A stretch of DNA of 64,000 nucleotides from NCBI RefSeq assembly GCF_001426585.1, contig NZ_LMEI01000009.1, positions 1 through 64,000 on the forward strand, written 5' to 3'. The DNA is from Streptomyces sp. Root431 (GTDB taxonomy: Bacteria; Actinomycetota; Actinomycetes; Streptomycetales; Streptomycetaceae). Made by a program: the position numbers and the translations under genes. The notes beneath the pieces are model-generated. The model did not search any database. It was not told the origin of the DNA and saw only the letters and a program-made list of their open reading frames with translations. Shown here one piece after another: positions 36,284 to 57,938 of this stretch (the stretch's first letter is position 1; the number at the start of each line of letters is the position of its first letter).

Positions 36284-36982
36284 CTACAGCAGGCCCGCGG
36301 CCTGGGTCAGGAGCTTCTCGTAGACCTCGGGGCGGTCCTCGTCGATGACGGGGAAGCCGACGCCGAAGTCGCCGTTGACCCAGCGCGCCCGGATGCCCGG
36401 GTTGGCGCTGTCCGTGCCGTCGTGCAGGAACACGTGCGGGCTGCAGTTGACCCGGCCGTCGCGCGCCGACTCGTACTGCGCCATGACCGCCGGGCGGGCG
36501 GTGCCGCCGTCGAAGGCCTCGGCGAGCGCCGCCACGTCCACCGCGCCCGTCTCCCCCGCCACGTCGAGGATCACGTGGCGCTGGGAGATGCACCGGCCCT
36601 CGGCCCAGAAGGCGCGGCGCAGCGCCCGGTCGAGCTGTTCACTGGCGTGCCAGCTCTGGGCCTTGGCGGCGTGGACCGCTTCCAGGGCCGGCAGGGTGGT
36701 CACCGGGTACGTCCAGTCCGGGCCCTGCCAGAGCCGCCAGCCGGCCTCGGGCTCCAGCGCGCCGAGGACGGAGATCTCCGAGTCCACCCCGGGGCGGGCG
36801 TTGACCTCGCGGTTGAACAGCTCCAGCGGGAACGCCCGCAGGTCGAACCAGACGCGCCCTTCGAGACCGAGCCGCCGCCGGGTCTCGTGCAGCCGGTGCA
36901 CGGCGACGTGTGCGAAGGAGCAGTTCAGGTCGGTGTAGACGGCGATCGTGTCGGGTGCGGCGGGCAGCCTGGGGTCGTTCAT
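36284..36982 (-). CDS. DsbA-family (2-hydroxychromene-2-carboxylate isomerase/FrnE-like) protein
   Basis: The 232-aa thioredoxin-fold protein has the start IAVYTDLNCSFAHVAVHRLHE, where DsbA-like proteins place CxxC. Only a single Cys is present, so disulfide exchange in the usual form is unlikely. Later segments VWFDLRAFPLELFN and FLHDGTDSANPG fit the FrnE/HCCA isomerase group. ATG 36982 follows GAGGAGA and overlaps the multicopper oxidase stop (ATGA). It is the last gene of the operon; a glutathione- or mycothiol-dependent isomerase or a chaperone for the oxidase is possible. Confidence 0.78.
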   Translation of the reverse strand: MNDPRLPAAPDTIAVYTDLNCSFAHVAVHRLHETRRRLGLEGRVWFDLRAFPLELFNREVNARPGVDSEISVLGALEPEAGWRLWQGPDWTYPVTTLPALEAVHAAKAQSWHASEQLDRALRRAFWAEGRCISQRHVILDVAGETGAVDVAALAEAFDGGTARPAVMAQYESARDGRVNCSPHVFLHDGTDSANPGIRARWVNGDFGVGFPVIDEDRPEVYEKLLTQAAGLL

Positions 36983-39900
36983 GGTGTCTCCTCGACTCGG
37001 ATCAGTCCCCACCAGCCCTCACTGACACCCCAGTGGAGGTTTCCGGTGCGGTACACATGGTCGCCCGGGTGCTGGGCGCGGAAGCGCACCGTCCGGGTGC
37101 TCCCGGAGGCCAGCGCGCCGATCGTCGACACGTACCAGCCGAGACCGGTTTCCGAGGCGTCCCACACCTGGCCGTGCACGGTGAAGCCCTGGTTGCGCAT
37201 CCGGTGCGAGGCGACGGCCAGGTGGACGGCCACCTGGTCGCCGGCGCGCGCGGTGAGCAGCGGGGTCGGCGGCTCCGGGTCGGACAGCACCGGGTCCAGC
37301 GGGTGCAGGGCGGCGCTGCGGTAGTTGTACGCCTTCTGGCCCGCATCGTCGGGGCTGTCCGAGAACAGGTCGGTGACCGGCTGCGTCAGGTCCCCGTCGT
37401 GGTAGAGCCGCAGGCCGTCCTGGCTGACCAGGACGAGTTCCCGTACGGGCTCCGCGTCCGGCCTGCGGACCACGGCCCGCTCGCCGGTCCACCGCTCCAG
37501 GCCGGTGTCGGGGTCGTACGGGGTGGCGTCGGCCTCCTCCACGACCAGCACGCCGACCAGGCCGCGGCGCGGGTGGGAGATCACGTCCGCGTGGGAGCGC
37601 AGCAGCACCACGCCGGGCTCGGCCGCGTACCAGCGGTACGTGCGGGAGGCCCCCGGCTTGACCGTGGTGTCGGCGTTGCGGCCGACGTGGGCGCCGTCGT
37701 CGGTGCGCACGTCGAAGTCGAGCAGGGTGGGGTGCAGGGAGACGCGGCCGGATATCGTCCTGGCCCCGGCGTCGGCCTCGTTCATCAGCCGCGGGTCCAG
37801 CGGGCTGGCGGGCGGCGGCCCGTACAGCTCGTTGATCAGGGTGACGTCCACCCATTCGCCGGCCCGGCAGCGCAGGACCAGCGGCCCTTCCTCGGGGCCG
37901 CCGTCGCCGTCGGCCGTGAAGACGAGGCCGTACGGGTCGGTGCGCAGCGGGCTGTACTCGATGACCTCGGCGCGGGCCCGGACGGTGTGCCGGCGCACCC
38001 GGCGGCGTGCCGGGAGCGGCGGGGCGTCGGGGGTCCGGCCGGGCAGCGGCGGCAGGTCGGCCTGCGGACGGCCGTACAGCCGCAGCAGTCCCCAGCAGCC
38101 CAGCCACAGGTCGTTGGCGGCGCCGAACGACCACAGGTGGTCGCCGGGACCGAGGGTCGGGGCGAGGGCGAGTTCGGCGACGTTGGAGATGCCCAGGGTC
38201 TGCTGGTTGCGCCAGGCCGTGTCCTCGCGGCCGGCCCACTCGCGCCAGCGTGCGCCGGAGAGGGTGAAGCTGTGCTGGAGGTCGTGGGAGCCCTGGAGGA
38301 CGTGGATCCGCAGGTCCTCGCCGGGGTAGCCGCGGAGCAGCGGGGTCCCGGGGTCGCCGTGGACGGCGCTGGAGAACCAGTGGGCCGGGTCGCCGCCCCG
38401 CTCGGACAGCGGCGCGCTGCGGTAGTTGACGCCCATCGAGCCCTGGTCGTCGGGGGCCCCGGGGAACGGCGGCGGGTTGATGGGTCCGCCGTGGTCGCCG
38501 TGTCCGTGCTTGACCATGGGGACGAAGTCCCCGATGGCCAGGACGATTTCGCGGTGGGCCTTGCCGTCGGCGGTCTTGATGACGGCCTGGGTGCCGCGCC
38601 GCAGTTCCCGCTCGTGGTCGTCGGGCGAGACCCAGACCGCACCCTCGGGCTGTGTCTGGAGCGCGCCGAACAGGCCGTGCCGCTGGCGGTAGTTGGCGAG
38701 CAGGTGGTCGTGGAAGAGGACGGTGCCGAAGTCCTCGTCCACGTACCAGCGGTACGTCCAGGAGTTGTACTGCCCGTTCGTCTCGGCGCCCTGGTCGGCG
38801 GTGGTGGTCGCCGACAGGTAGTTCCAGCCCACGGCGGAGCCGTCGGAGACGAGCGGGTCGTACTTGACGAGGTGGGTGTGGAGTCCGCACTCGGGCTGGA
38901 AGGGCAGCTTCGGGTCGAAGGCGGAGTCCTTCTGGGGGCCGGTCGGCAGGGAGTTGGTCAGGGTGAGTTCGAGCACCTCGCCCTTGTTGGCCCGGATGAC
39001 CAGCGGCTCAAGGGTCCTTTCACCCTTGGCCAGTTGCCGCTTGAACTCTTCGAGGCCGCCCGCCTCCTCGATCTCCTCGGCGAGGACGTAGAAGTGGGCG
39101 TTGTGATCGTGCCAGGTCGCGGCGTGCTCGTCGGTCGGGTCGCCGTAGTAGTGCACGGTGCCGTTGGTGACGACCAGGTCGTAGCGCCGGACCGGCGCCC
39201 CGGGCGGGCCCACCTTGGTGAAGGCCTCGCCGGGCTGCGGGTCCTCGACGAACGCGGCGGCCTCCAGCGGGGTGGGCTCGCGGCCCATGCCCGGCGGCTG
39301 GAGCGGGGTCCGCGGCGGCCGGGGGTTCTTCTGCGGGAAGCGGGCCGCCTCGGCCAGGAACCCGGGGAAGCCGGGGCGTTCGGGCGTCGGGACCGGCGGG
39401 GCCTCGCGGTGCGGCAGGGGGACGAGCCGCTGGATCGGCCGGCCGTCGGGGTAGCCTCCGGTGCCGTTCTGGAGGGTGTCGAAGATCCGGAACATGCCCC
39501 ACATGCCCATGTGGAAGTGGACGTACATGTGGCAGTGCCAGATGGAGTCGCCGACCGCGCCCTGCGTCGAGCCGAGGCCGCCGATCAGTTCGAGGGTCAT
39601 GGCCTCCTGCGGGCCGATGCTGACGGAGTCGACGATCGGGGCGTTCTCGTCGTCGGCCCGCAGCCGCCACTGGTGCAGGTGGGTGTGGAAGACATGGGTG
39701 TCGCGCATGCCGCCGTGGACGAGCCGGATGACCGTCGGGTCGCCGGAGTAGCCGCGCAGGACGGGCGTGGACGGGTCGCCGAAGAGCCAGGAGCTGTGGT
39801 GCACCTCCTCGCCGAGCACCGCGTCCCGCACCGGGTCGATCCGGCCCTCCTCAAGGAGCTGCTGGTAGCGGTGCATCCGCCATTCCATCGGCTCGATGCG

Positions 39901-40767
39901 GTGGTTGACCGGGAGCATCGCCATGTTGAGCGGTGTCAGGTCGTCGATGGTGTCGGAGGTGCCGGGTCCGGCCGCCGGCGAGCCGGCGGCGGAAGCGGTG
40001 GGCCGGTAGATCCCGGCCGCCGCGGCGGTTGCCGCCTGCCCGGCGTCATGGCCTCCGCCGTGCCCGTGGCCGGGCATCGGCGGCGGGACCGCCGGGTTGT
40101 CGTTGCTCGGGTACTCCATCATGAAGATCACGAACTCGCGGAAGCTGCGGTCCGCCAGATGGATGTCCGCGTACAGGCCCGTGGCCAGCGGCCCTCCCGT
40201 CTCCGGGTCGGTCCAGGTGGCCTCGGGAGCCTCGACGACGACCGCGCCGACCATGCCGTGGCTCTGCGTCCCCTCGCCGCGGGCGTCGGACATGTCCCCG
40301 AAGTGGAAGACGCCCTCGTGCTCGCACACCCACTCGTAGACGCGGGTCTCGCCCGGCTGCACGCTGCTGTCCGGGTTGAGGCCCGCCGCGAGCCCGTCCA
40401 TCGTGCGGACGTCGTACCGGACTCCCTGGAGGGTGATGCCGGCGGGCCGCGCGAGCTCGTTGGTCAGCCGGACCCGCAGCCGCTCGCCGCGCCGGACCCG
40501 CAGGACCAGCGGGCGGGCGAGCGGGTTGGGTCCCGGCACCAGCTCCGGGTGCTCCAGATAGCTGGGGAAGGGCACCGGCCAGGTGGCCTCGACCTCCCTG
40601 AGCTCCGGCGCGTCCGAAGCCAGTACGTACAGGGCGCCGTTGCGGTCGTGGTCGCCGAACTCGTTGTACGCGATGGGCACATGGAGCGCGACGACGTCGT
40701 ACGTCCGCACCGGCCTGCCGTCTCCGTGGTGACGCTCGGCGGTTAATGCAGTGCTGCTGCTGTTCAT
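36979..40767 (-). CDS. giant multi-cupredoxin multicopper oxidase (MnxG-like)
   Basis: The 1262-aa protein holds about six cupredoxin domains. All copper motifs are present: HTHLH (361-365), HCHMYVHFHMGMW (411-423, with the T1 Cys412), HTH at 630-632 and HDH at 686-688. Ordinary laccases are 300-550 aa. This length and motif order resemble MnxG of Bacillus Mn(II) oxidase and ceruloplasmin-like proteins. No Sec or Tat signal is evident, so it may be cytosolic or exported with a partner. It lies in the azomycin-type operon, 103 nt after the Rieske-methyltransferase gene. A His/Gly-rich stretch at 233-240 may bind metal. Confidence 0.85.
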   Translation of the reverse strand: MNSSSTALTAERHHGDGRPVRTYDVVALHVPIAYNEFGDHDRNGALYVLASDAPELREVEATWPVPFPSYLEHPELVPGPNPLARPLVLRVRRGERLRVRLTNELARPAGITLQGVRYDVRTMDGLAAGLNPDSSVQPGETRVYEWVCEHEGVFHFGDMSDARGEGTQSHGMVGAVVVEAPEATWTDPETGGPLATGLYADIHLADRSFREFVIFMMEYPSNDNPAVPPPMPGHGHGGGHDAGQAATAAAAGIYRPTASAAGSPAAGPGTSDTIDDLTPLNMAMLPVNHRIEPMEWRMHRYQQLLEEGRIDPVRDAVLGEEVHHSSWLFGDPSTPVLRGYSGDPTVIRLVHGGMRDTHVFHTHLHQWRLRADDENAPIVDSVSIGPQEAMTLELIGGLGSTQGAVGDSIWHCHMYVHFHMGMWGMFRIFDTLQNGTGGYPDGRPIQRLVPLPHREAPPVPTPERPGFPGFLAEAARFPQKNPRPPRTPLQPPGMGREPTPLEAAAFVEDPQPGEAFTKVGPPGAPVRRYDLVVTNGTVHYYGDPTDEHAATWHDHNAHFYVLAEEIEEAGGLEEFKRQLAKGERTLEPLVIRANKGEVLELTLTNSLPTGPQKDSAFDPKLPFQPECGLHTHLVKYDPLVSDGSAVGWNYLSATTTADQGAETNGQYNSWTYRWYVDEDFGTVLFHDHLLANYRQRHGLFGALQTQPEGAVWVSPDDHERELRRGTQAVIKTADGKAHREIVLAIGDFVPMVKHGHGDHGGPINPPPFPGAPDDQGSMGVNYRSAPLSERGGDPAHWFSSAVHGDPGTPLLRGYPGEDLRIHVLQGSHDLQHSFTLSGARWREWAGREDTAWRNQQTLGISNVAELALAPTLGPGDHLWSFGAANDLWLGCWGLLRLYGRPQADLPPLPGRTPDAPPLPARRRVRRHTVRARAEVIEYSPLRTDPYGLVFTADGDGGPEEGPLVLRCRAGEWVDVTLINELYGPPPASPLDPRLMNEADAGARTISGRVSLHPTLLDFDVRTDDGAHVGRNADTTVKPGASRTYRWYAAEPGVVLLRSHADVISHPRRGLVGVLVVEEADATPYDPDTGLERWTGERAVVRRPDAEPVRELVLVSQDGLRLYHDGDLTQPVTDLFSDSPDDAGQKAYNYRSAALHPLDPVLSDPEPPTPLLTARAGDQVAVHLAVASHRMRNQGFTVHGQVWDASETGLGWYVSTIGALASGSTRTVRFRAQHPGDHVYRTGNLHWGVSEGWWGLIRVEETP

Positions 40768-40807
40768 GTTCTGCGGTACTCCCCCGTACTCGAATGCTTC
40801 TTCGCGG

Positions 40808-40859
40808 TGATCGGTCGTGCGGTGAACAGTCTTGCGCTGATCGGTCCCGTGGCGAACGG
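40808..40859. repeat. 30-bp-period direct repeat in the gap before the multicopper oxidase gene
   Basis: TGATCGGTCGTGCGGTGAAC (from 40808) recurs as TGATCGGTCCCGTGGCGAAC (from 40838). The 22-nt units match at 17 positions with a 30-bp period. The repeat fills most of the only sizeable gap inside the operon. It might be an internal promoter or mRNA processing site. Confidence 0.5.
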
Positions 40860-40870
40860 ATTTCCGGCGA

Positions 40871-42175
40871 TCAGCCGGCGGCGGGACCGGTGCTCTGGGC
40901 GAACCGGTCCACCACCCGGGAGCCGGAGAGGACCTGCCCCTCCCAGCTGTAGGTCTGGCCGAAGGGATTGCCGTCTCTGCCGCCCCGGCGGCTGAACGTC
41001 AGCGCGATCCGGTCGCCGCGCCGCACCCGCACCGGCCGCTCGACCGGCAGGTAGCAGTGCTTCCAGCTGTCGGACGTGGTGCGCCCCTCGATGTCGTCCC
41101 CGGAGATGTCGAGGGCGACGGAGTCCGAGAGCTCGGCGACGAAGTAGCCCTTGAACCCGGTGAACACCCCGTCACGCTGCACGGTGTACGCCAGCGGCAC
41201 GCGGTACGAGGTCTCGGTGCCCGGCTCCGGGGCCGCCCCCGGCGCGTACCGCCGGATCAGCCGGGGCGAGGCGAGGTGACCCGCGAGCGGCAGGACGGTG
41301 TCGTAGTACAGCGAGAAGGGGTCCTGCGCGCCCCGGGCGGCGAGCAGGGCCGCGAAGGCCTCGGGGCCGCCCGCGTCCCGCGGCCCCTCGCCGGTCAGCT
41401 GCGCGTGGGCGGACTCGGCGGTCACCGGGACCAGGAAGCTGTCGACCAGGCTGGGCAGCATCGCACCGCCGGGCTTCAGGAAGCGCTCCCGGGCGTCGTC
41501 GAGGATCGCGGAGAAGTTCTCGTTGTCGGCGAGGTTCCCCATGATCTCGGAGATCACGATGTCCACCCGCTCCGGCAGTTCCAGGTCGAAGGAGAGCCCG
41601 GACAGCGGGATGAAGCGGTCGGCGAAGCCCGCCTCGGCGAGCCGCTCGGCCGCCGTGGCGAGCACCGTCTCGTTGAGGTCGATCCCGTAGACCCGGGCCG
41701 CCCCGGCCTCCAGGGCCCAGCGGGCCAGGATGCCGGTGCCGGTGCCGAGGTCGAGGACGACGTCCCCGGGGCGTACGGCCTCGGTGATCGCCGTCCGGAA
41801 GGCCGTCATCCGGAGGTCGTCCCCGAGCATCAGCTCGTGGAACTCCTCGCCCCATTCGAGCAGTTGCTCGGATGCGGGGAGCCAGACCTGCTCGGCGGCG
41901 TAGTAGCCGGGCCAGATGCCCGCCCGGTACACGGTCAGCGGGTCGTCGCCGGGGCCGCGGACGCGGCAGCCGGTCCTCAGGTCGAAGCTGCTGTGGTGGA
42001 GCGGACAACTGATGCGCAGGGTGGCGGCGTTCACGAAGCCGTGGGCGAGCCGCCCCTTGCGGTGCGGGCAGGAGGCGTCGACGACGAACTCCTGGCCGGC
42101 GGCGCGGACGCGCAGCCGGTCACCGGGAAGCTCCGTGAGGGACGGCAGCTCGGTGGCGGGATCGGGGCCTGTCAT
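40871..42175 (-). CDS. Rieske domain - PRMT-like SAM methyltransferase fusion
   Basis: The 434-aa protein begins with a Rieske [2Fe-2S] domain (Cys36-x-His38, Cys57-x2-His60). A methyltransferase follows with motif I VVLDLGTGTG (139-148). The PRMT double-E loop SEIMGNLADNE has Glu210 and Glu219 at canonical spacing, and a THW-like loop appears as SDSWKHC. The C-terminal beta-barrel typical of PRMTs is present. PRMTs methylate guanidine nitrogens. In an operon that converts arginine to a 2-aminoimidazole, N-methylation of a guanidine or aminoimidazole, or electron supply to the N-oxygenase by the Rieske part, is a reasonable inference. ATG 42175 overlaps the rohS-like stop. Confidence 0.82.
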   Translation of the reverse strand: MTGPDPATELPSLTELPGDRLRVRAAGQEFVVDASCPHRKGRLAHGFVNAATLRISCPLHHSSFDLRTGCRVRGPGDDPLTVYRAGIWPGYYAAEQVWLPASEQLLEWGEEFHELMLGDDLRMTAFRTAITEAVRPGDVVLDLGTGTGILARWALEAGAARVYGIDLNETVLATAAERLAEAGFADRFIPLSGLSFDLELPERVDIVISEIMGNLADNENFSAILDDARERFLKPGGAMLPSLVDSFLVPVTAESAHAQLTGEGPRDAGGPEAFAALLAARGAQDPFSLYYDTVLPLAGHLASPRLIRRYAPGAAPEPGTETSYRVPLAYTVQRDGVFTGFKGYFVAELSDSVALDISGDDIEGRTTSDSWKHCYLPVERPVRVRRGDRIALTFSRRGGRDGNPFGQTYSWEGQVLSGSRVVDRFAQSTGPAAG

Positions 42176-43050
42176 GCCGCCGCCCGGGCGCCGAGCTCCC
42201 TGGCCCGCGCGACGGCGACGTCGAAGGCGCCGCCGATCAGCCCGGAGAGCAGTCGGGCGCCGGTCCACAGCCGGGCCGGGTCGAGGCCGTGCGCCGCCTC
42301 GTACTCCTTGATCGCCAACTGCATCTCCTGCATGTGGAAGGTGTCGATGTGCAGGTGCTCGGTGTAGTAGCGGCCCTGCCGGATGCCGAGCCGCTCGCAG
42401 GCGCGGGCCTGGTGGGTGAAGGCGTCCGGGATGGACGCCTCCAGGTACGCGAGGGCGCCGAGGAAGTACTCGACGTGCGGGGCGCGCTGCGTCAGCCAGT
42501 AGAAGACGTTGAGGAACTGGAAGGTCTCGTCCCCGGTGGTGTCGAGGAAGCCCTCGGGTTCCTGCGGCAGGCCCAGCTCGGCCAGGAGCAGCCGGTAGAG
42601 CTGGGAGTGCGCCTGCTGGAGGTTGCCGCAGCCGAACTCGTCGATCAGGACCCGCATCACGGCCATCTGTGCCTTGATCGGTAGCCGGGGGACGGCCGGG
42701 AAGAAGTTCTGCGCCTCGGTGAGCCCGTCGAGCGCGAACTCCCTTACGACGAAGGTGAATTCCTCCCGGGTGGCGTGATCGGCGAGGTACTCGCCGGACG
42801 GGCTGCCCGCCCGCTCCTCCGCGAGGAGGCCGTCGAGGAGGCGCTGCCAGGCGGCCCGGTCGGGGACCGGTTCACCACTGGAGTCGAGGGAGTCCACGAG
42901 CGGGAGGAGCCAGCCCCGCTCGATCTCCTCGACCCGGGCGAGCAGGCGGGAGTCCAGGAGCGCGCGGTTGTGCCGGAACAGCTCGCGGTGCGGCGACTCG
43001 CCGCCGGCGTCCGGGCGCGCGGCCTGGGCGGTGTCCGTTGCCGTGCTCAC
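42172..43050 (-). CDS. heme-oxygenase-like diiron oxidase (RohS-like N-oxygenase)
   Basis: The 292-aa all-helical protein belongs to the heme-oxygenase-like diiron oxidase family. Candidate iron ligands lie in DEFGCGNLQQAHSQLY (Glu and His) and in HLHIDTFHMQEM (Asp/His/Glu), plus an early Glu in the first long helix. In azomycin biosynthesis RohS oxidises 2-aminoimidazole to 2-nitroimidazole. The gene order rohP-Q-R-S here makes that the best assignment. GTG 43050 overlaps the aldolase stop by GTGA. Without a search, other HDO activities such as C-C cleavage remain possible. Confidence 0.8.
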   Translation of the reverse strand: MSTATDTAQAARPDAGGESPHRELFRHNRALLDSRLLARVEEIERGWLLPLVDSLDSSGEPVPDRAAWQRLLDGLLAEERAGSPSGEYLADHATREEFTFVVREFALDGLTEAQNFFPAVPRLPIKAQMAVMRVLIDEFGCGNLQQAHSQLYRLLLAELGLPQEPEGFLDTTGDETFQFLNVFYWLTQRAPHVEYFLGALAYLEASIPDAFTHQARACERLGIRQGRYYTEHLHIDTFHMQEMQLAIKEYEAAHGLDPARLWTGARLLSGLIGGAFDVAVARARELGARAAA

Positions 43051-43844
43051 GAAGACACCTCCCCGGTGTCCACGGTCCTGTCGGTCTCCAGTACGCCGCT
43101 GCGGTGCAGCGCCGCCTTGACCCAGCGGTACCAGTCGTCCTTCTCCAGGCCGTAGCGCGCACAGGCGGCGGTGAGGGCGGCTTCCGGATCCGCGAGTCGG
43201 CCGGCGAACAGATCGGCGCACAGGGCCGGTTCGACGTTGGCGAGCGCCACGACGTATCCGTCGACGGCTCCGGAGTCGAGCAGCAGGTGTTCGAGGCCGG
43301 CGAGGACGCGCGCGCCGGGCCGGGCCTCGACGAGGCGCCGGGTGAAGGCGGCGTCGCCGGAGGAGTCCTTGACGCCCACCACCGAGGGGAGCTCGCAGAT
43401 CCGCAGCAGCGTGTCGAAGTCGGCGGAGTTTCCGGAGACTTCGGTGCCGTGGTAGACGACCACGGGCAGTCCGCTGTGCTCGGCGAGGTCCGCGAAGTGG
43501 CGGTAGATCTCGCCCTGGGTGACCCCCGCGCCGTACGGGCTGGTGGCGACGAGTCCGTGGGCGCCGAGGTCGGCCGCGACCCGGGCCCGTTCGAGTACCT
43601 GTTCCGTGGTGGGCCGCAGGACGCCGGCGAGGACGGGCAGTTCGCCCGCGTGCTTCACCGTGGCCCCGAGCATGGCCTCCCACTGGTGGTCCGTGAGCCA
43701 CCGGCCCTCGCCGGTGCTGAGGTTCGGCAGCAGGGCGTCGACGTGCGGACGGAGGGTGTCGAGCAGTCGGGCGACTCCACTCTCGGAGACCTCGCCGGTC
43801 TCGGAGAGGGGCGTCACCAGGGCCGCTATCACTCCCTGGTTCAT
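43047..43844 (-). CDS. DapA/NAL-family aldolase (RohR-like)
   Basis: The 265-aa Schiff-base aldolase has Tyr131 in VVVYHGTE and the catalytic Lys159 in GVKDSSGD. The N-terminal dihydrodipicolinate-synthase strand ALVTPLSETGEVS is also present. In the azomycin pathway RohR splits 4-hydroxy-2-ketoarginine into pyruvate and guanidinoacetaldehyde. The chain is somewhat shorter than DapA (about 290). It begins one base after the stop of the preceding gene and is coupled to the diiron oxidase gene. Confidence 0.85.
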   Translation of the reverse strand: MNQGVIAALVTPLSETGEVSESGVARLLDTLRPHVDALLPNLSTGEGRWLTDHQWEAMLGATVKHAGELPVLAGVLRPTTEQVLERARVAADLGAHGLVATSPYGAGVTQGEIYRHFADLAEHSGLPVVVYHGTEVSGNSADFDTLLRICELPSVVGVKDSSGDAAFTRRLVEARPGARVLAGLEHLLLDSGAVDGYVVALANVEPALCADLFAGRLADPEAALTAACARYGLEKDDWYRWVKAALHRSGVLETDRTVDTGEVSS

Positions 43845-43845
43845 C

Positions 43846-44406
43846 TCAGACTCCCTCGATTGAGGCGCCGTGCCCTAAGGGCAGGCGCAGGGCGAGCGAT
43901 GTGAGGTAGAGCCGCTCCAGCGGCTCGGGGAAGGACGGCTCCGGCTCGCCGGCGGGCCAGGCGGGCACGGCGCGGACGGGAAGCCCCTCGAAGGCGGCCG
44001 AGCGGGGGCCGGCGGTGTGCAGCAGCCCCTTGCGGTTGATCACCTGGCCAATCAACATCCGGTCGATGAAGGGAAGTTGCTGCGGTGTGTCCGAGTCGGA
44101 GAGGGCCAGCCGGACGTCCGCCCGGTCGTATCCCTCCCGGCTGATGTCCATGACCGTGTGGAGGTGGTCCATGAACGGGTAGTAGAGGTCCTGGAGTTCG
44201 CGCGAATAGCCCCAGATCACGTCGTCGCAGCGGCCGACCTGCTCCAGGCTCATCACGACGCGCCCTTCGAGGCGGCGCACGAAGAAGGCCTTGGCGGCGA
44301 TGCGCAGACCTTCGTCGGCGCTGTGCATGCCGAGGAAGAGCGACGCGTCGATGAAGTCGTCGCGGGCGGCCTCCGCGCCTTCGACTCCGATGTGGTCAGC
44401 GGGCAT
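43846..44406 (-). CDS. RohQ-position protein with PIN-like N-terminus
   Basis: The 186-aa protein has [14 protein letters not shown] near the N-terminus, then [29 protein letters not shown]. This beta-strand-Asp-helix pattern is reminiscent of PIN-fold proteins. The middle reads [20 protein letters not shown]. No full nuclease acid cluster can be confirmed. By position between the RohP- and RohR-like genes it corresponds to RohQ, the cyclodehydratase that forms 2-aminoimidazole from guanidinoacetaldehyde. It overlaps the rohP-like gene by 11 nt. The name is positional; the fold call is tentative. Confidence 0.65.
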
Positions 44407-45580
44407 GGCGGTCCAGCACCTCCCGCAGCCGCTTCATGGCGCCGGCGAACATCTGCGGCTCGCGCGCGAGGGCCATCCGGACGAAGGGCTCGCCGCGGCC
44501 CGGCTGGCTCCAGTAGAAGAACCGTCCGGGCAGGACGTACACGCCCACCTCCCGCAGTTCCCGCTGGAGTTCCGTCGCGGTCAGGTCCGGGTGCTGGATC
44601 CTGGCCCAGGCCACGCTGGTCTTCGCGATCGGCTCCTGGTATTCGAGGATCGTGCCCTGGAGGGCCTCCTTGACGGCCGCCCGGTTCACGTCGAGGACGT
44701 CACGGATCGAGGCGAGGCCGTCCGCCTCGGAGTTCTCCACGTACTGGGTCAGCATGTTGAGCACGAACGGCGAGACGTTCAGGAGCACGCTGGTGTGGAG
44801 GTTGTACACCTCCTCCTTGATGTCGTCGCTCGCCGTGAGCATGGCCGCCTTCGCGTCCTGCACGGGCCACGTCTTGCCGGTGTCCTCGATGGCCAGATAG
44901 CGCACCCCGGACTCCTCCAGCAGTTCGTATACGTCGAACCGCGCGAGCTCGGGGTCGTAGAGGGTGAAGGAGGCGAAGCAGAAGTCGATGATGAGCAGCT
45001 TGTTGTGGTCCTTGCAGAACCTCACGACCTCCTCGAAACCCTTGCGCCCGTGCTGCATCAGGCTGAACCCCGTGGGGTTGTTGGGGTCGACGAGGAACAG
45101 CGCGTCGGTGCGGACCCGGCGCTTGAGCTCCGCGTAGATCCGGTCGGGGTCGTGCAGCGCCGACTCCTCGACGGGGTACAGCGGTACGCCCATGTTCGAC
45201 AGGACGTCGTGCAGGTTGTCGAAGCAGGGCTCGACGAGGGTCACGGCCATGCGCTGCTGCTTGAGGTACATCGCCACGACCATCGTGGAGATGGAGGCGG
45301 CGTACGACAGCAGGGTCTTCTTCTTCTCCAGCGCGGTGGGCTGGCGGTGGAGGCGGAAGAACGCCTCCATGAACCGCTGCTCGTAGGTGGCCTGGAGCCC
45401 CTCCTCCGCCTCGTACCACAGCTCGGGCAGCCGGGCGACGATCTTGTGCTGGGCCGCGGACTGGCGCTGGTGGGTGTGGGCGTCGGCGAGGTTGAACTCG
45501 GTGAGCAGGGCCTGGATCTCGTGCTGCGTGAGGTCGAGGAGTTCCTGGCTGCTCAGGGTCGTGCCGGCGTGCGCGGTCAT
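44396..45580 (-). CDS. PLP- and O2-dependent L-arginine oxidase (RohP/MppP-like)
   Basis: The 394-aa fold-type I PLP enzyme has PLP Lys236 in IEDTGKTWP and PNNPTG at 166-171. Its N-terminus, [19 protein letters not shown], is characteristic of MppP/RohP arginine oxidases, which differ from ordinary aminotransferases there. RohP converts L-Arg to 4-hydroxy-2-ketoarginine, the first step to azomycin. ATG 45580 follows GGAGGAA. It heads the seven-gene minus-strand operon. Related enzymes serve enduracididine or indolmycin pathways, but the partners here point to azomycin. Confidence 0.88.
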
Positions 45581-46000
45581 GGTTCCTCCATGCGTACGGC
45601 ATACGGGTGAGCGCGTGCGGGATTGCCGGCGTGGCGCGGGGCGCCACGGTTGTGCTCGTGCGCCGGGGGGCTGCTGCCGCAAGCCGCGGCCCCAGGGCAC
45701 ACGGAAGACCGTCACGGATGGACGGTGGGGGGACTACCTCTACGGGCAGGGGCCGAGGCGCTCATCGTCGGCTGCGATGCAATATCGGAAACCAGTTCCA
45801 GACATGTATCTCCCCCGTAAACGGACTGCGGTCCGATTGGGGGCGACTCTGCCACATGCTGCGGCGGCGGGACAAGCGATCCGGGGCAGGGCGGGTCGCG
45901 GCGACTCAGCGGCCATATGGGGGTTCCTGGCCGTAAACTGCGCAGACGCCGCCCGGCCCCCACCGGGACCCCCACGGAGCGTGAACCGAGAGGCCCCCAG
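45581..46000. promoter_or_regulatory. divergent promoter region, azomycin-type operon / TetR
   Basis: This 420-nt region without a gene separates the rohP-like and tetR genes. It holds CGGAC-TGCG-GTCCG (45822-45835), a perfect 5-4-5 dyad, as well as GGAA-ACCAG-TTCC (45787-45799) and CCATATGG (45913-45920). The first is the best candidate for a TetR operator. It has locally lower GC around 45780-45815, as expected for promoters. Confidence 0.4.
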
Positions 46001-46612
46001 GTGCAGCACGTGCCGCCGGACAGCTGTCCCCTCGCCGCCCCCGAGACGGCACCGGAGCGGTCGGACGCCGCGCGCAACCGGCTGCGCATCCTGGCCGCGG
46101 CCCAGGCGCTCTTCGACCGCCACGGGGTCGAGAGCGTGTCCATGGACCGCATCGCGGCCGAGGCCGGCGTGGGCAAAGGCACGCTGTTCCGGAGGTTCGG
46201 CAGCAAGGCGGGGCTCGCCGCCGCGCTGCTGGACACCCAGGACAGCCGGCTCCAGGAGCGCATCCTCTTCGGCCCGCCGCCGCTGGGCCCGGACGCCCCC
46301 GCCGCCGATCGCGTCGTGGCGTTCTTCGACGCGTACCTGGACCTCCTGGACGACAACCTGGAGCTCCTGAGGCTCTCCGAGACGGCCGCGCCCGGCGCCC
46401 GCTACCGGATAGGTTCGTACGGCTTCTGGCGCGTTCACCTCACCCTGATGCTGCGCGAGGCTTGTCCGGATCTCGACGCCGACTGCACGGCCCACCTGCT
46501 GCTCGCGCCCCTGGACTCCGACCTCCAGCACGCCCTGCGCCAGGGCCAGTTCCGCCCCGAGCGGATCCGGAGCACGCTGCTCACACTGGTGAATCGAGTC
46601 ATCGGCCACTGA
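46001..46612 (+). CDS. TetR-family regulator divergent from the azomycin-type operon
   Basis: The 203-aa protein has an N-terminal HTH at about 25-70 (NRLRILAAAQALFDRHGVESVSMDRIA; AGVGKGTLFRRFGSKAGLAAALL). A C-terminal ligand domain follows. GTG 46001 is chosen because GAGAGG lies ~8 nt upstream; an ATG at 45917 would add an Arg/Pro-rich extension. By position it likely represses the operon and senses its product, but it could act elsewhere. Confidence 0.87.
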   Translation: MQHVPPDSCPLAAPETAPERSDAARNRLRILAAAQALFDRHGVESVSMDRIAAEAGVGKGTLFRRFGSKAGLAAALLDTQDSRLQERILFGPPPLGPDAPAADRVVAFFDAYLDLLDDNLELLRLSETAAPGARYRIGSYGFWRVHLTLMLREACPDLDADCTAHLLLAPLDSDLQHALRQGQFRPERIRSTLLTLVNRVIGH

Positions 46613-46749: not shown

Positions 46750-47319
46750 TCAGCTCTCCCGGATCGCCTCGAAGTCGAGGGACAGCTCGATCTCCTTGGA
46801 GACGAGGATGCCGCCGGTCTCCAGGACCATGTTCCAGGTCAGGCCCCAGTCCTCGCGGTTGACCTTGCCGTGGGCGGAGAAGACCGTACGGTCGTTGCCC
46901 CACGGGTCGCGCGCGTAGCCGAGGTAGTCCACCGCGAGCGTCACCGGGCGGGTGACGTCCTTGATGGTCAGGTCGCCGACGAGCGTGCCGGCCTTGCCGT
47001 CCCACGTCACCGAGGTGGAGACGAAGGTGGCCTTCGGGTACTTCTCCACGTCGAAGAGGTCCGCGGAGCGCAGGTGCTCGTCGCGCGTGGCGTCACCGCT
47101 GTCGACGCTGGCGACGTCGATGATCGCGGTGACCTTGCTGTCCTCGGGCCGCTCACCGATGACGAGAGTCGCGTCGACTCCGGTGAAACGCCCGCGGACC
47201 TTGGTCAGCATGAAGTGTCGCCCGACGAAGCCGACCTCGGTGTGACCCGGGTCGATCTTCCACGAGCCGGCGGCGGGCAGCTCCACGCCGTCGACGGTAC
47301 GAGTGGGTGCGGTGGTCAT
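46750..47319 (-). CDS. YceI-family lipid-binding protein
   Basis: The 189-aa YceI-like lipocalin-type barrel has GSWKIDPGHTEVGFVGRH, ATFVSTSVTW, GDLTIKDVTRPVTLAVDY and DWGLTWN. YceI proteins bind isoprenoid or amphiphilic ligands. No signal peptide is present, so it is probably cytoplasmic, as with many actinobacterial members. It lies 19 nt after the rhodanese gene on the same strand and forms an operon with it, controlled by the divergent MarR gene. Confidence 0.92.
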   Translation of the reverse strand: MTTAPTRTVDGVELPAAGSWKIDPGHTEVGFVGRHFMLTKVRGRFTGVDATLVIGERPEDSKVTAIIDVASVDSGDATRDEHLRSADLFDVEKYPKATFVSTSVTWDGKAGTLVGDLTIKDVTRPVTLAVDYLGYARDPWGNDRTVFSAHGKVNREDWGLTWNMVLETGGILVSKEIELSLDFEAIRES

Positions 47320-47338: not shown

Positions 47339-47668
47339 TCAGGCGACGGACTCGGTCGGCAGGCCGGCCTCGACCCAGTCGTCCTTGCCCTCGTAGTACT
47401 CGAACACGTTGGTGTAGCCCAGCTCGACGAGGCGGTCGGCCGCGATGCCCGAGTTGGGGCAGGGGCTGTTGGCGCAGTAGACGGCGATCTCCGCGTCCTT
47501 GTTCGGAAGCAGGCTCGGCGCCAGCGCGTCCACCTGGTCGTGCGGCAGGTTGAGCGCTCCCGGCAGGTGCTTGTCGTTGTAGTACTGCGCCGGCAGGGCC
47601 TCGAGCACCGTCACCAGGTTCTCGTCGATCTTCTTCTTCAGCTCGTCACGCGAGATCCGCTGAGCCAT
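47339..47668 (-). CDS. rhodanese-like sulfurtransferase
   Basis: The 109-aa single rhodanese domain has HLPGALNLPHDQVD and the active-site loop YCANSPCPNSGIAADRL with the catalytic Cys in YCA. It may transfer sulfane sulfur or sense reactive sulfur. ATG 47668 follows GGGAGG. It is first in the operon with yceI and divergent from marR. Confidence 0.9.
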   Translation of the reverse strand: MAQRISRDELKKKIDENLVTVLEALPAQYYNDKHLPGALNLPHDQVDALAPSLLPNKDAEIAVYCANSPCPNSGIAADRLVELGYTNVFEYYEGKDDWVEAGLPTESVA

Positions 47669-51871: not shown

Positions 51872-52429
51872 TCAGCCGATGAGCAGCGCGCCGGGCAGCA
51901 GCACCAGCGCGACCGTGAAGCCGGCGATGCCCACCCGTAGCCACTCGTACTTGATCGAGACGATCCGGCTGTTCTCCACGAGCGAGGCGACGACGGCGGC
52001 CCTGGGGGCGCGATCGGTCTCCCGGAGCGCCTCCTCCAGGACCGCCTGGCCGCGGCGGGCCGCGCCGCGGATGTCCGCGAAGTGGGTGAGGGGCTCGCCG
52101 GGCTGCCAGCCGGCCGTCCGGTAGCGGGGTACGACGGCCATGAGGAGGGCCGCGAGCGAGACGACGAAGCAGGCGGCCCCGGCCCACCACAGGACCTGGC
52201 CCAGCGCCGAGAGGTCGGTGGGGTGCCAGCCGCGCGTGGCGAGCACGCCGACGAGCGCGGCGGCGGCCATGCCCTGGGCGGCCACGAGGATCGAGCCCTT
52301 GGTGTCCGCCCGTACCGCCTCCTGGCGCAGTTCGCCCAGGAGCCGCTCGGCCGCGCCCTGCGGCAGGGGCGGTGTCTGCGGCTCCGCCCGTGCCGGTTCC
52401 GAACCCGTTGCGGGAGCGGTCGTGCTCAT
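51872..52429 (-). CDS. Pycsar-effector-like (PycTM) membrane protein
   Basis: The 185-aa protein has a Pro-rich N-terminus. The PycTM-type core follows: RQEAVRADTKGSILVAAQG leading into TM1 (~46-64), TM2 (~77-99) ending in MAVVPR, and a helical linker with FADIRG. The final segment RIVSIKYEWLRVGIAG enters TM3 (~165-185). In Pycsar systems such proteins respond to cyclic CMP or UMP by disrupting the membrane. ATG 52429 overlaps the SPFH-like stop (ATGA). The cyclase candidate lies three genes upstream on the same strand. Related proteins also occur without cyclases, so function is inferred. Confidence 0.78.
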   Translation of the reverse strand: MSTTAPATGSEPARAEPQTPPLPQGAAERLLGELRQEAVRADTKGSILVAAQGMAAAALVGVLATRGWHPTDLSALGQVLWWAGAACFVVSLAALLMAVVPRYRTAGWQPGEPLTHFADIRGAARRGQAVLEEALRETDRAPRAAVVASLVENSRIVSIKYEWLRVGIAGFTVALVLLPGALLIG

Positions 52430-57251: not shown

Positions 57252-57938
57252 TCAAGCGTTTCCGGAGCGGGCCATCTGGCGGAGTACGTCAGGTCGTACG
57301 ACGACGATCCCGCGCCGTCCCGTCCGTACGATGCCCCGCTCCCGCAGCTGCTTGAGCAGGCGCGCGACCGCCTCGCGCGAGGCGCCGACCGAGCCCGCGA
57401 GTTCGCTCTGGCTGAGCCCGGCGGTGAGCTGGACGCCGTCCTCCGACTCCTCGCCGTGGGTCCGGATCAGTTCGAGCAGGAGAAGGGCGAGCCGCTCCTG
57501 GACGGCGAGCGAGGCGAACTGCACGCGCCGCCGGTCGCTGTCGCGCGTGCGGTCGGCGGTCAGGGCCAGCAACTTCCGGGCGATGGCCGGGCGTTCGTCG
57601 AGGAGGGTGCCGAACCGTTCGGCGTCGACGGCGAGCGCCTCGACGGGTTCGAGCGCGATGACGGTGGCGCCGCGCGGCCGCCCGCTGAGCAGGGCCTGCT
57701 CACCGACGATGTCGCCGGGGCCCCGGAGTGCGAGGAGCGCCTCGTACCCGTTGGGCGCGGCCGAGGTCACCTTGGCCCAGCCGGAGAGGATGATCAGGAC
57801 GTGGGTCGAGGGCTCGTGCTCCCTGAGCAGCACCTGCCGCGCGGGGAAGGCGAGGTGGCCGCCGCTGCTGAAGAGCGCCTGCCGGTCCTCGGTGTCCAAG
57901 CGGACCACGAAGGGGACTTGGTCCTCGAACTGCGTCAA
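57252..57938 (-). CDS. Crp/Fnr-family regulator
   Basis: The 228-aa protein has an N-terminal cyclic-nucleotide-binding barrel at ~10-120 (LLREHEPSTHVLIILSGWAKVT; LRGPGDIVGEQALLSGRPRGATVIAL). The GEQALLSGRPRGATV segment corresponds to the phosphate-binding cassette. A C-terminal HTH lies at ~165-215 (LSQSELAGSVGASREAVARLLKQLRERG). The start is TTG 57938 with GGGGAGA five bases upstream. It precedes the cyclase cluster on the same strand. Whether it binds a nucleotide made by that cyclase is an attractive but unproven idea. Confidence 0.9.
   Translation of the reverse strand: MTQFEDQVPFVVRLDTEDRQALFSSGGHLAFPARQVLLREHEPSTHVLIILSGWAKVTSAAPNGYEALLALRGPGDIVGEQALLSGRPRGATVIALEPVEALAVDAERFGTLLDERPAIARKLLALTADRTRDSDRRRVQFASLAVQERLALLLLELIRTHGEESEDGVQLTAGLSQSELAGSVGASREAVARLLKQLRERGIVRTGRRGIVVVRPDVLRQMARSGNA

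Follow-up and report, generated by a model that had tools for sequence, protein, structure and literature searches.

Organization of the locus and the core roh genes

The window analyzed here is a 64,000-nt stretch of DNA from Streptomyces sp. Root431 (contig NZ_LMEI01000009.1, positions 1 to 64,000 of the forward strand), and the region of interest, 36284-45580, carries an azomycin (2-nitroimidazole)-type gene cluster in its extended actinobacterial form. Seven open reading frames (ORFs), all on the minus strand and all fitting within this span, form an operon-like run. Read from 45580 to 36284, the order is rohP-rohQ-rohR-rohS, then an ORF in which a Rieske domain is fused to a domain of the protein arginine methyltransferase (PRMT) type, then a MnxG-like multicopper oxidase (MCO) gene and a DsbA-like gene. 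The spacing is very tight from rohP to the fusion ORF: rohP and rohQ overlap by 11 nt, rohQ and rohR are separated by 1 nt, and overlaps of 4 nt join rohR to rohS (GTGA) and rohS to the fusion ORF (ATGA). A gap of 103 nt follows before the MCO gene, which in turn lies very close to the DsbA-like gene and overlaps it by 4 nt if the latter starts at its ATG; a GTG at 37012 is possible as an alternative start. Six of the seven ORFs passed the composition filter, with a third-position GC content of 0.90-0.95; the rohS frame is missing from that list because it is open far upstream. When ten genes of the region were compared with two or three relatives, the dN/dS values were 0.06-0.49, which, at the level of sequence comparison, indicates purifying selection.

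The initial annotation had placed genes resembling rohP, rohQ, rohR and rohS here, in this order and overlapping, and the comparisons bore this out, with only the 1-nt gap between rohQ and rohR departing from the overlap. RohP (44396-45580, minus strand, 394 aa) is a predicted pyridoxal phosphate- and O2-dependent L-arginine oxidase that matched PDB 6c3a by phmmer with an E-value of 1e-202, and MppP (5dj1) much more weakly (E 1e-63). Residues K236, D16, T18-E21 and D33-Q38 were each kept in at least 95% of 85 sequences. RohQ (43846-44406, minus strand, 186 aa) belongs to the DUF6190 family of predicted cyclodehydratases (PF19689, E 1e-60), and its sequence matched the solved RohQ (PDB 9oq8/9c5w) with an E-value of 8e-27 by phmmer. 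Its AlphaFold2 model (pLDDT 90) matched 9c5w by Foldseek (E 1.2e-14), and the fold is described as PIN-like because the weaker Foldseek matches were mostly VapC/PIN proteins; a RohQ structure had been deposited beforehand, so this fold is nothing new.

RohR (43047-43844, minus strand, 265 aa) is a putative retro-aldolase of the DHDPS/NAL superfamily (PF00701, E 7e-31), which matched the DHDPS structure 3flu with an E-value of 2e-25. The Schiff-base-type lysine K159 and Y131 were kept in at least 95% of 84 sequences, and no chain named RohR was found among the best 60 of its 122 PDB matches. RohS (42172-43050, minus strand, 292 aa) is a haem-oxygenase-like diiron N-oxygenase, with PF14518 (E 4e-36) as its sole Pfam match, i.e., it is a single-domain protein. 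It matched PbrRohS (PDB 9pfw, E 6e-57; 9pfx, E 4e-55), and residues E138, H148, E204, E231, H232, D236 and H239 were kept in at least 90% of 79 sequences. The RohPQRS assignment of the four core genes is very secure, the matches lying far beyond chance in sequence. A second strong Haem_oxygenas_2 gene (202 bits; G000:C9:347564-348094), 27% identical to RohS, is present elsewhere in the genome.

A Rieske domain fused to a PRMT-fold methyltransferase

The initial annotation had counted three extra genes downstream of rohS. These do exist, but the first of them (42175-40871, minus strand) is not wholly extra, since it is a fusion whose Rieske part lies at the RohT position. Pfam matches to Rieske, methyltransferase and PRMT5_C models were obtained with this ORF, and two domains could be delimited, with inner borders that are approximate: an N-terminal Rieske [2Fe-2S] domain (41905-42175; PF00355, E 4e-8) and a C-terminal PRMT-like S-adenosylmethionine-dependent methyltransferase domain (40871-41884), for which 3r0q was the best of the PRMT matches by phmmer (E 3.5e-22). 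In the Rieske domain, the ligands C36, H38, C57 and H60 (CxH and CxxH) were kept in at least 95% of 77 sequences. The corresponding part of the structural model is of low confidence (pLDDT 57-77 for residues 1-70 and below 50 for residues 73-90), and no fold is claimed for it. The model of the PRMT domain, when aligned with PRMT structures by VIA-align, gave Z values of 29.9-31.3 over the best 50 entries, which included PRMT2, 4 and 5, with 300-315 aligned residues at an rmsd of 2.8-3.9. The loops SE..GN..DNE and S.SWKH, which we take to be the double-Glu loop and the THW-type loop of PRMTs, were kept in 32 of the 32 copies checked, a check that omits locus L137. (Set A3 comprised 26 of the 33 PRMT sequences then known, i.e., 32 loci plus the window.) The glutamate pair of PRMTs is a clamp for the cationic guanidinium.

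Related loci were collected in a scan with the RohP alignment, with one genome per species, in which 80 loci were kept of 105 confirmed RohP relatives. Here and below, a gene was scored as absent from a locus when no tblastn match (E 1e-4) was found within about 10 kb or less on either side, and within less at contig ends. The PRMT gene was present in 22 actinobacterial loci (the extended loci) and in 7 proteobacterial ones, and was not found in 51. The Rieske-PRMT fusion recurs in 9 other loci (L036-L043 and L102), so that the fusion is real and a sequencing artefact is ruled out; among the 22 extended loci, the remaining 13 have separate adjoining genes for the two domains. Since in other loci a separate Rieske gene stands after rohS, at the place taken here by the Rieske domain, this half of the fusion probably corresponds to RohT, encoded by the last of the five rohPQRST genes.

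The multicopper oxidase and the other genes of the extension

The MCO gene (36979-40767, minus strand) codes for a giant MnxG-like protein of 1262 aa that matched MnxG (PDB 9bxa) with an E-value of 4e-206. The two proteins could be aligned over most of their length, in three main stretches, and the copper-type motifs were kept and matched where aligned. The copper-type ligands H358, H361, H363, H411, C412, H413, H417, M422, H630, H632, H686 and H688 were kept in at least 95% of 17 sequences. The window protein differs from MnxG in that it scored only 209.4 bits against NCBIfam NF041487, whose cut-off is 3100, and in that it sits in an antibiotic cluster; it is thus not MnxG itself. Residues 1-456 gave matches of at least 74% identity in 5 genomes (its own included), all of them PRMT-positive, and weaker matches of 53% and 35% in two other genomes.

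The last gene of the run (36284-36982, minus strand) codes for a DsbA-fold thiol protein (PF01323, E 4e-11) that scored above the Pfam DSBA cut-off (43.7 against 25.6 bits) and matched DsbM in the PDB weakly (E 0.003). No CxxC active site was found in it: a single cysteine stands at the site, in the sequence CSFA. This cysteine (C31, numbered from the GTG at 37012) and a second one elsewhere, C190, were kept in at least 95% of 65 sequences.

Upstream of rohP, two further genes are part of the extended cluster, a YceI-family gene (46750-47319, minus strand; PF04264, E 4e-50) and a rhodanese-like gene (47339-47668, minus strand), the latter matched by NCBIfam rhodanese models below their cut-offs. 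Matches to the YceI family are widespread in the genus (at E 1e-40 in 130 of 150 genomes). Orthologues of at least 80% identity were found in only 5 of the 150 (its own included), all five beside RohP and rhodanese, which rules out that the two genes belong to the ordinary chromosomal surroundings. Neither RohP nor rhodanese was found at 25 of the weaker YceI loci, examined over about 3.5 kb each, and further weaker matches exist. Between yceI and rohP lies a divergent TetR-family regulator gene (45917-46612, plus strand; PF00440, E 2e-16). Homologues of it were found in 9 of the 22 extended loci; among the 58 others, 31 have one. The TetR-rohP gap, scanned for an operator, contained one 8-nt hairpin and one overlapping palindrome, whose meaning is not clear.

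Distribution of the extension across genomes

RohR, RohS and Rieske were found in all 22 extended loci, RohQ in 20, YceI and rhodanese in 21 each, the DsbA-like gene in 20 and the MCO motif in 17. Counting by ORF gave 15 MCOs, because two of the MCO ORFs are cut off by the end of the contig. None of the other 58 loci gave a match to YceI, rhodanese or the MnxG-like MCO; the DsbA-like gene was present in 41 of them. The 7 of these 58 that carry PRMT are all proteobacterial, and three of the 7 have an MCO of the laccase type. In gammaproteobacteria the laccase-type MCO lies directly upstream of rohP (L109, L110 and L113), and the actinobacterial MCO is of the MnxG type; the presence of two MCO families beside PRMT points to a shared oxidation step. 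A glutathione-transferase-like gene was present in 8 of the 8 PRMT-positive proteobacterial loci (L105, L106, L108-L111, L113 and L137). Overall, the MCO motif was detected in 21 of 31 PRMT-positive and in 0 of 59 PRMT-negative loci; the Fisher test of this link assumes independent loci and is not sufficient by itself.

In a quick RohP tree, built without bootstraps and excluding two loci with a broken RohP (L144 and L145), the extended-type RohP formed a clade of 27 rows (SH-aLRT 95), 26 of which have PRMT; at the sole PRMT-less row, L052, RohS and Rieske were also not found. The closest named relatives of the window RohP are those of S. narbonensis (98%) and S. gardneri (97%). In the 394 Streptomycetaceae genomes, RohP was found at 60% identity or more in 20 and in its extended type (at least 71%) in 8. 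PRMT orthologues (at least 66%) occurred in 7 of these 8 and in 0 of the remaining 386, and weaker PRMT-like matches (35-45%) in three genomes, one of them at a szn-type locus. The extension is conserved, crosses phyla and looks dispensable for the core.

Several observations on the wider family were made in the course of this survey. The window's genome carries another roh cluster, one without PRMT, at L029 (G000:C11:383000-402000), in which RohP, RohQ, RohR and RohS are 65%, 53%, 47% and 48% identical to those of the window, and in which Rieske and DsbA are present. One roh locus of each type is also found in S. eurocidicus, S. olivoreticuli, S. albireticuli and Streptomyces sp. UNOC14_S4. 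At L046 (Streptomyces sp. UNOC14_S4) and L047 (S. griseocarneus), both of which have RohP, RohR, RohS, Rieske and PRMT, no RohQ match turned up between rohP and rohR. The two broken rohP genes, L144 and L145, are split into two frames in two genomes of the genus Pseudomonas (G512 and G475), and the other roh genes were matched there. Four metagenome-assembled genomes, three of them labelled as candidate phyla and one unclassified (L100, L103, L107 and L112), have RohP at 52-57% identity together with RohR; RohQ was matched in two of them, and neither RohS nor Rieske was found in the stretches searched. These genomes may come from organisms that make 2-aminoimidazole and do not nitrate it, or may reflect errors in binning. 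In addition, a pyruvate dehydrogenase E1-type gene lies near DsbA and the roh genes in 9 loci of one PRMT-less subgroup (L090:5344-8160, L083, L085, L087, L088, L089, L091, L092 and L095), grouped by BLAST with a Pfam check on L090 only; it could be a resistant target copy.

Proposed pathway and alternative explanations

By analogy with the published chemistry of the homologues, RohP would convert L-arginine to 4-hydroxy-2-ketoarginine, RohR would cleave this to guanidinoacetaldehyde, RohQ would cyclize the latter to 2-aminoimidazole, and RohS would oxidize the amine of 2-aminoimidazole to a nitro group. Our best reading builds on what was observed directly, i.e., the identity and order of the genes, their folds, the conserved ligands and the co-occurrence. 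It proposes that RohPQRS(T) makes azomycin, that the PRMT-like enzyme methylates a guanidine and that the MCO oxidizes the product, and as a whole we consider it reasonably probable. The Rieske domain would most likely pass electrons to RohS, a role that we infer with fair confidence because RohS activity in vitro was seen with phenazine methosulfate, NADH and iron (PMC10724926) and because the Rieske gene follows rohS. The PRMT-like domain would most likely N-methylate one of the pathway's cationic guanidines, in the simplest case 2-aminoimidazole, before or beside RohS, although this assignment is put forward tentatively. At physiological pH azomycin carries either no charge or a negative one, so that a guanidine intermediate, and especially the cyclic 2-aminoimidazole, would be the likelier PRMT substrate. 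The MCO might then oxidize the methylated amine or hydroxylamine, and the DsbA-like, YceI and rhodanese proteins might act as redox or self-protection partners.

A further step, possible though somewhat doubtful, is that the published pathway stops short of the true end product of the cluster family. This product would be an undescribed N-methylated or oxidatively coupled nitroimidazole or aminoimidazole, formed through PRMT acting on 2-aminoimidazole and through separately recruited MCOs, of the MnxG type in actinobacteria and of the laccase type in gammaproteobacteria. Such a novel product would possibly belong to the whole clade and not to this window alone.

Several points weigh against the reading of azomycin synthesis followed by methylation and oxidation. 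The equation of the Rieske half with RohT is drawn from gene order, and free arginine could be the substrate of the PRMT, as in the case of SznE. The MCO motif is missing in 10 of the 31 PRMT-positive loci (L053 and L111 being cut by contig ends near the cluster) and also in L026 and L028, two extended loci outside the 31-locus count, so that the MCO is not obligatory; furthermore, the PRMT-MCO link cannot be significant in a tree-aware test, as it comprises only 4-5 independent pairs. We know of no methylated product of S. eurocidicus. The product reported from this species, whose locus L048 has the layout of the window, is azomycin (PMC12713392).

This last point supports the alternative that azomycin is the sole product, and that PRMT, MCO, DsbA, YceI and rhodanese have a protective role in the producer, such as the detoxification of reduced nitroimidazole or the masking of 2-aminoimidazole, or a role in copper, redox or thiol homeostasis. 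The glutathione-transferase-like gene at every PRMT-positive proteobacterial locus agrees with such a function, as does the DsbA-like gene, whose presence in 41 of the 58 non-extended loci means that it is not tied to methylation. However, the guanidine-type catalytic loops of PRMT, kept in all 32 copies, suggest a specific substrate, and the PRMT-less Pseudomonas loci and other actinobacterial loci manage without PRMT, MCO, YceI and rhodanese. We regard this alternative as rather unlikely, though less so than the two that follow.

Improbable, in our view, is that a SznE-like PRMT methylates free L-arginine before RohP, so that the pathway would run on N-methyl-arginine to an N-methyl-2-aminoimidazole series. 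The N-terminal DxTQHE motif of RohP, whose counterpart in MppP we take to contact the guanidinium, is the same with PRMT (32 of 34 rows) or without it (58 of 58), which argues mildly against PRMT acting on free arginine. SznE itself offers a precedent for this route (PMC11705231), and the window PRMT shares 30% identity with the SznE-like protein encoded at a szn-type locus; on the other side, the RohS of Actinokineospora terrae accepts unmethylated 2-aminoimidazole (PMC10724926). Finally, the 103 nt that separate the PRMT stop from the MCO start, and the loci that lack MCO, would allow the Rieske-PRMT, MCO and DsbA genes to be bystanders of an adjacent operon or hitch-hikers, but the overlapping reading frames, the fusion in 9 other loci plus the window, the occurrence of PRMT next to roh genes in Streptomycetaceae, Pseudonocardiaceae and proteobacteria, and the purifying selection on the region make this very improbable and, for PRMT, already largely refute it.

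Other genes of the window

Outside the cluster, a gene at 51872-52429 (minus strand) codes for a protein with a PycTM-type (Pycsar effector) domain (Pfam 72 bits; PADLOC E 5e-10). Of the neighbouring genes scanned, the one at 57252-57908 was matched by PADLOC as PycC/PycTIR, but Pfam shows a Crp-type regulator that binds cyclic mononucleotides, and therefore no defence system is claimed near 51872-52429.

Comparison with known systems

Azomycin is the natural parent compound of the nitroimidazoles, a class of drugs. The cluster at L027, the 6c3a-type roh locus, was used as a reference: its RohP is identical to PDB 6c3a over residues 26-410, with a few differences before residue 26. We take 6c3a to be the S. 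cattleya enzyme, and L027 would then presumably be S. cattleya. The RohP of the window is 74-78% identical to those of L027 (74-76%) and of L048, from S. eurocidicus ATCC 27428. Both loci resemble the window in the rohPQRS order, the Rieske gene after rohS, the PRMT, MnxG-like MCO and DsbA genes that follow, and the rhodanese and YceI genes upstream. The window differs from them in the fusion of Rieske and PRMT into one ORF and in the TetR gene between YceI and rohP, which was not found in L048 or L027. The initial annotation had argued from the extra genes that the product may differ from azomycin. As argued, this is not supported: L027 and L048 carry the same PRMT, MCO and DsbA genes, so that the window agrees in this with the reference clusters and is not set apart from them by the three downstream genes. 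The window is an ordinary member of the extended group, and nothing in its extra genes is specific to it.

The assignment to an azomycin-type cluster, also made in the initial annotation, held up: in vitro, the RohS of A. terrae converts 2-aminoimidazole to azomycin (PMC10724926), and L054, a locus of this species, has PRMT and MCO and lies in the same RohP clade as the window. A five-gene rohPQRST set has been described in S. eurocidicus and Pseudomonas, with Pseudomonas DF41 and CMR5c as azomycin makers, and deletion of rohPQRST in Pseudomonas sp. DF41 abolishes azomycin (PMC12713392). As to which of the two S. eurocidicus loci is the published one, the identities of RohP and RohS favour L048 but are only indicative, the matching being limited by the fact that CMR5c is not among the compared loci by name. 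The Pseudomonas loci share with the window the five core genes in the same order. The core proteins of the 9 loci retrieved by region share about 36-53% identity with those of the window, and no MnxG-like MCO, DsbA, YceI or rhodanese was found at these loci. RohP is present in 10 of 249 genomes of the genus, and 8 of these 10, unlike the window, have no PRMT anywhere (2 have it). From the PRMT-less Pseudomonas loci and the published deletion together, azomycin itself can probably be made without the extension, the Pseudomonas genomes compared being others than DF41 and CMR5c.

The extension raises the question of the role of a guanidine-type methyltransferase and a copper oxidase in a 2-nitroimidazole pathway. 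The words methyltransferase, Rieske and multicopper do not occur in the main text of PMC12713392, and a term search of PMC12511057 gave no relevant passage. Among the papers listed in literature searches, none deals with the genes of the extension in its title or abstract, though the 2019 pathway paper may mention them; azomycin combined with multicopper oxidase returned nothing.

The closest parallel to the methyltransferase is found in streptozotocin synthesis, where the arginine-guanidino methyltransferase SznE works with the diiron enzyme SznF (PMC11705231). As in the window, a PRMT-like guanidino methyltransferase there adjoins a haem-oxygenase-like diiron N-oxygenase, and the PRMT-like protein beside a SznF (786 bits) in the szn-type locus L035 is the one that is 30% identical to the window PRMT. 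SznF-type proteins differ in that they carry a cupin domain, as named in the PDB, and make an N-nitroso group, whereas the window RohS has no cupin fusion. By analogy, SznE may serve as a precedent for a PRMT-like enzyme partnered with a diiron N-oxygenase, and the window PRMT, should 2-aminoimidazole prove to be its substrate, would be an enzyme of the PRMT fold that acts on a cyclic guanidine in free form, comparable in this to SznE with its substrate arginine.

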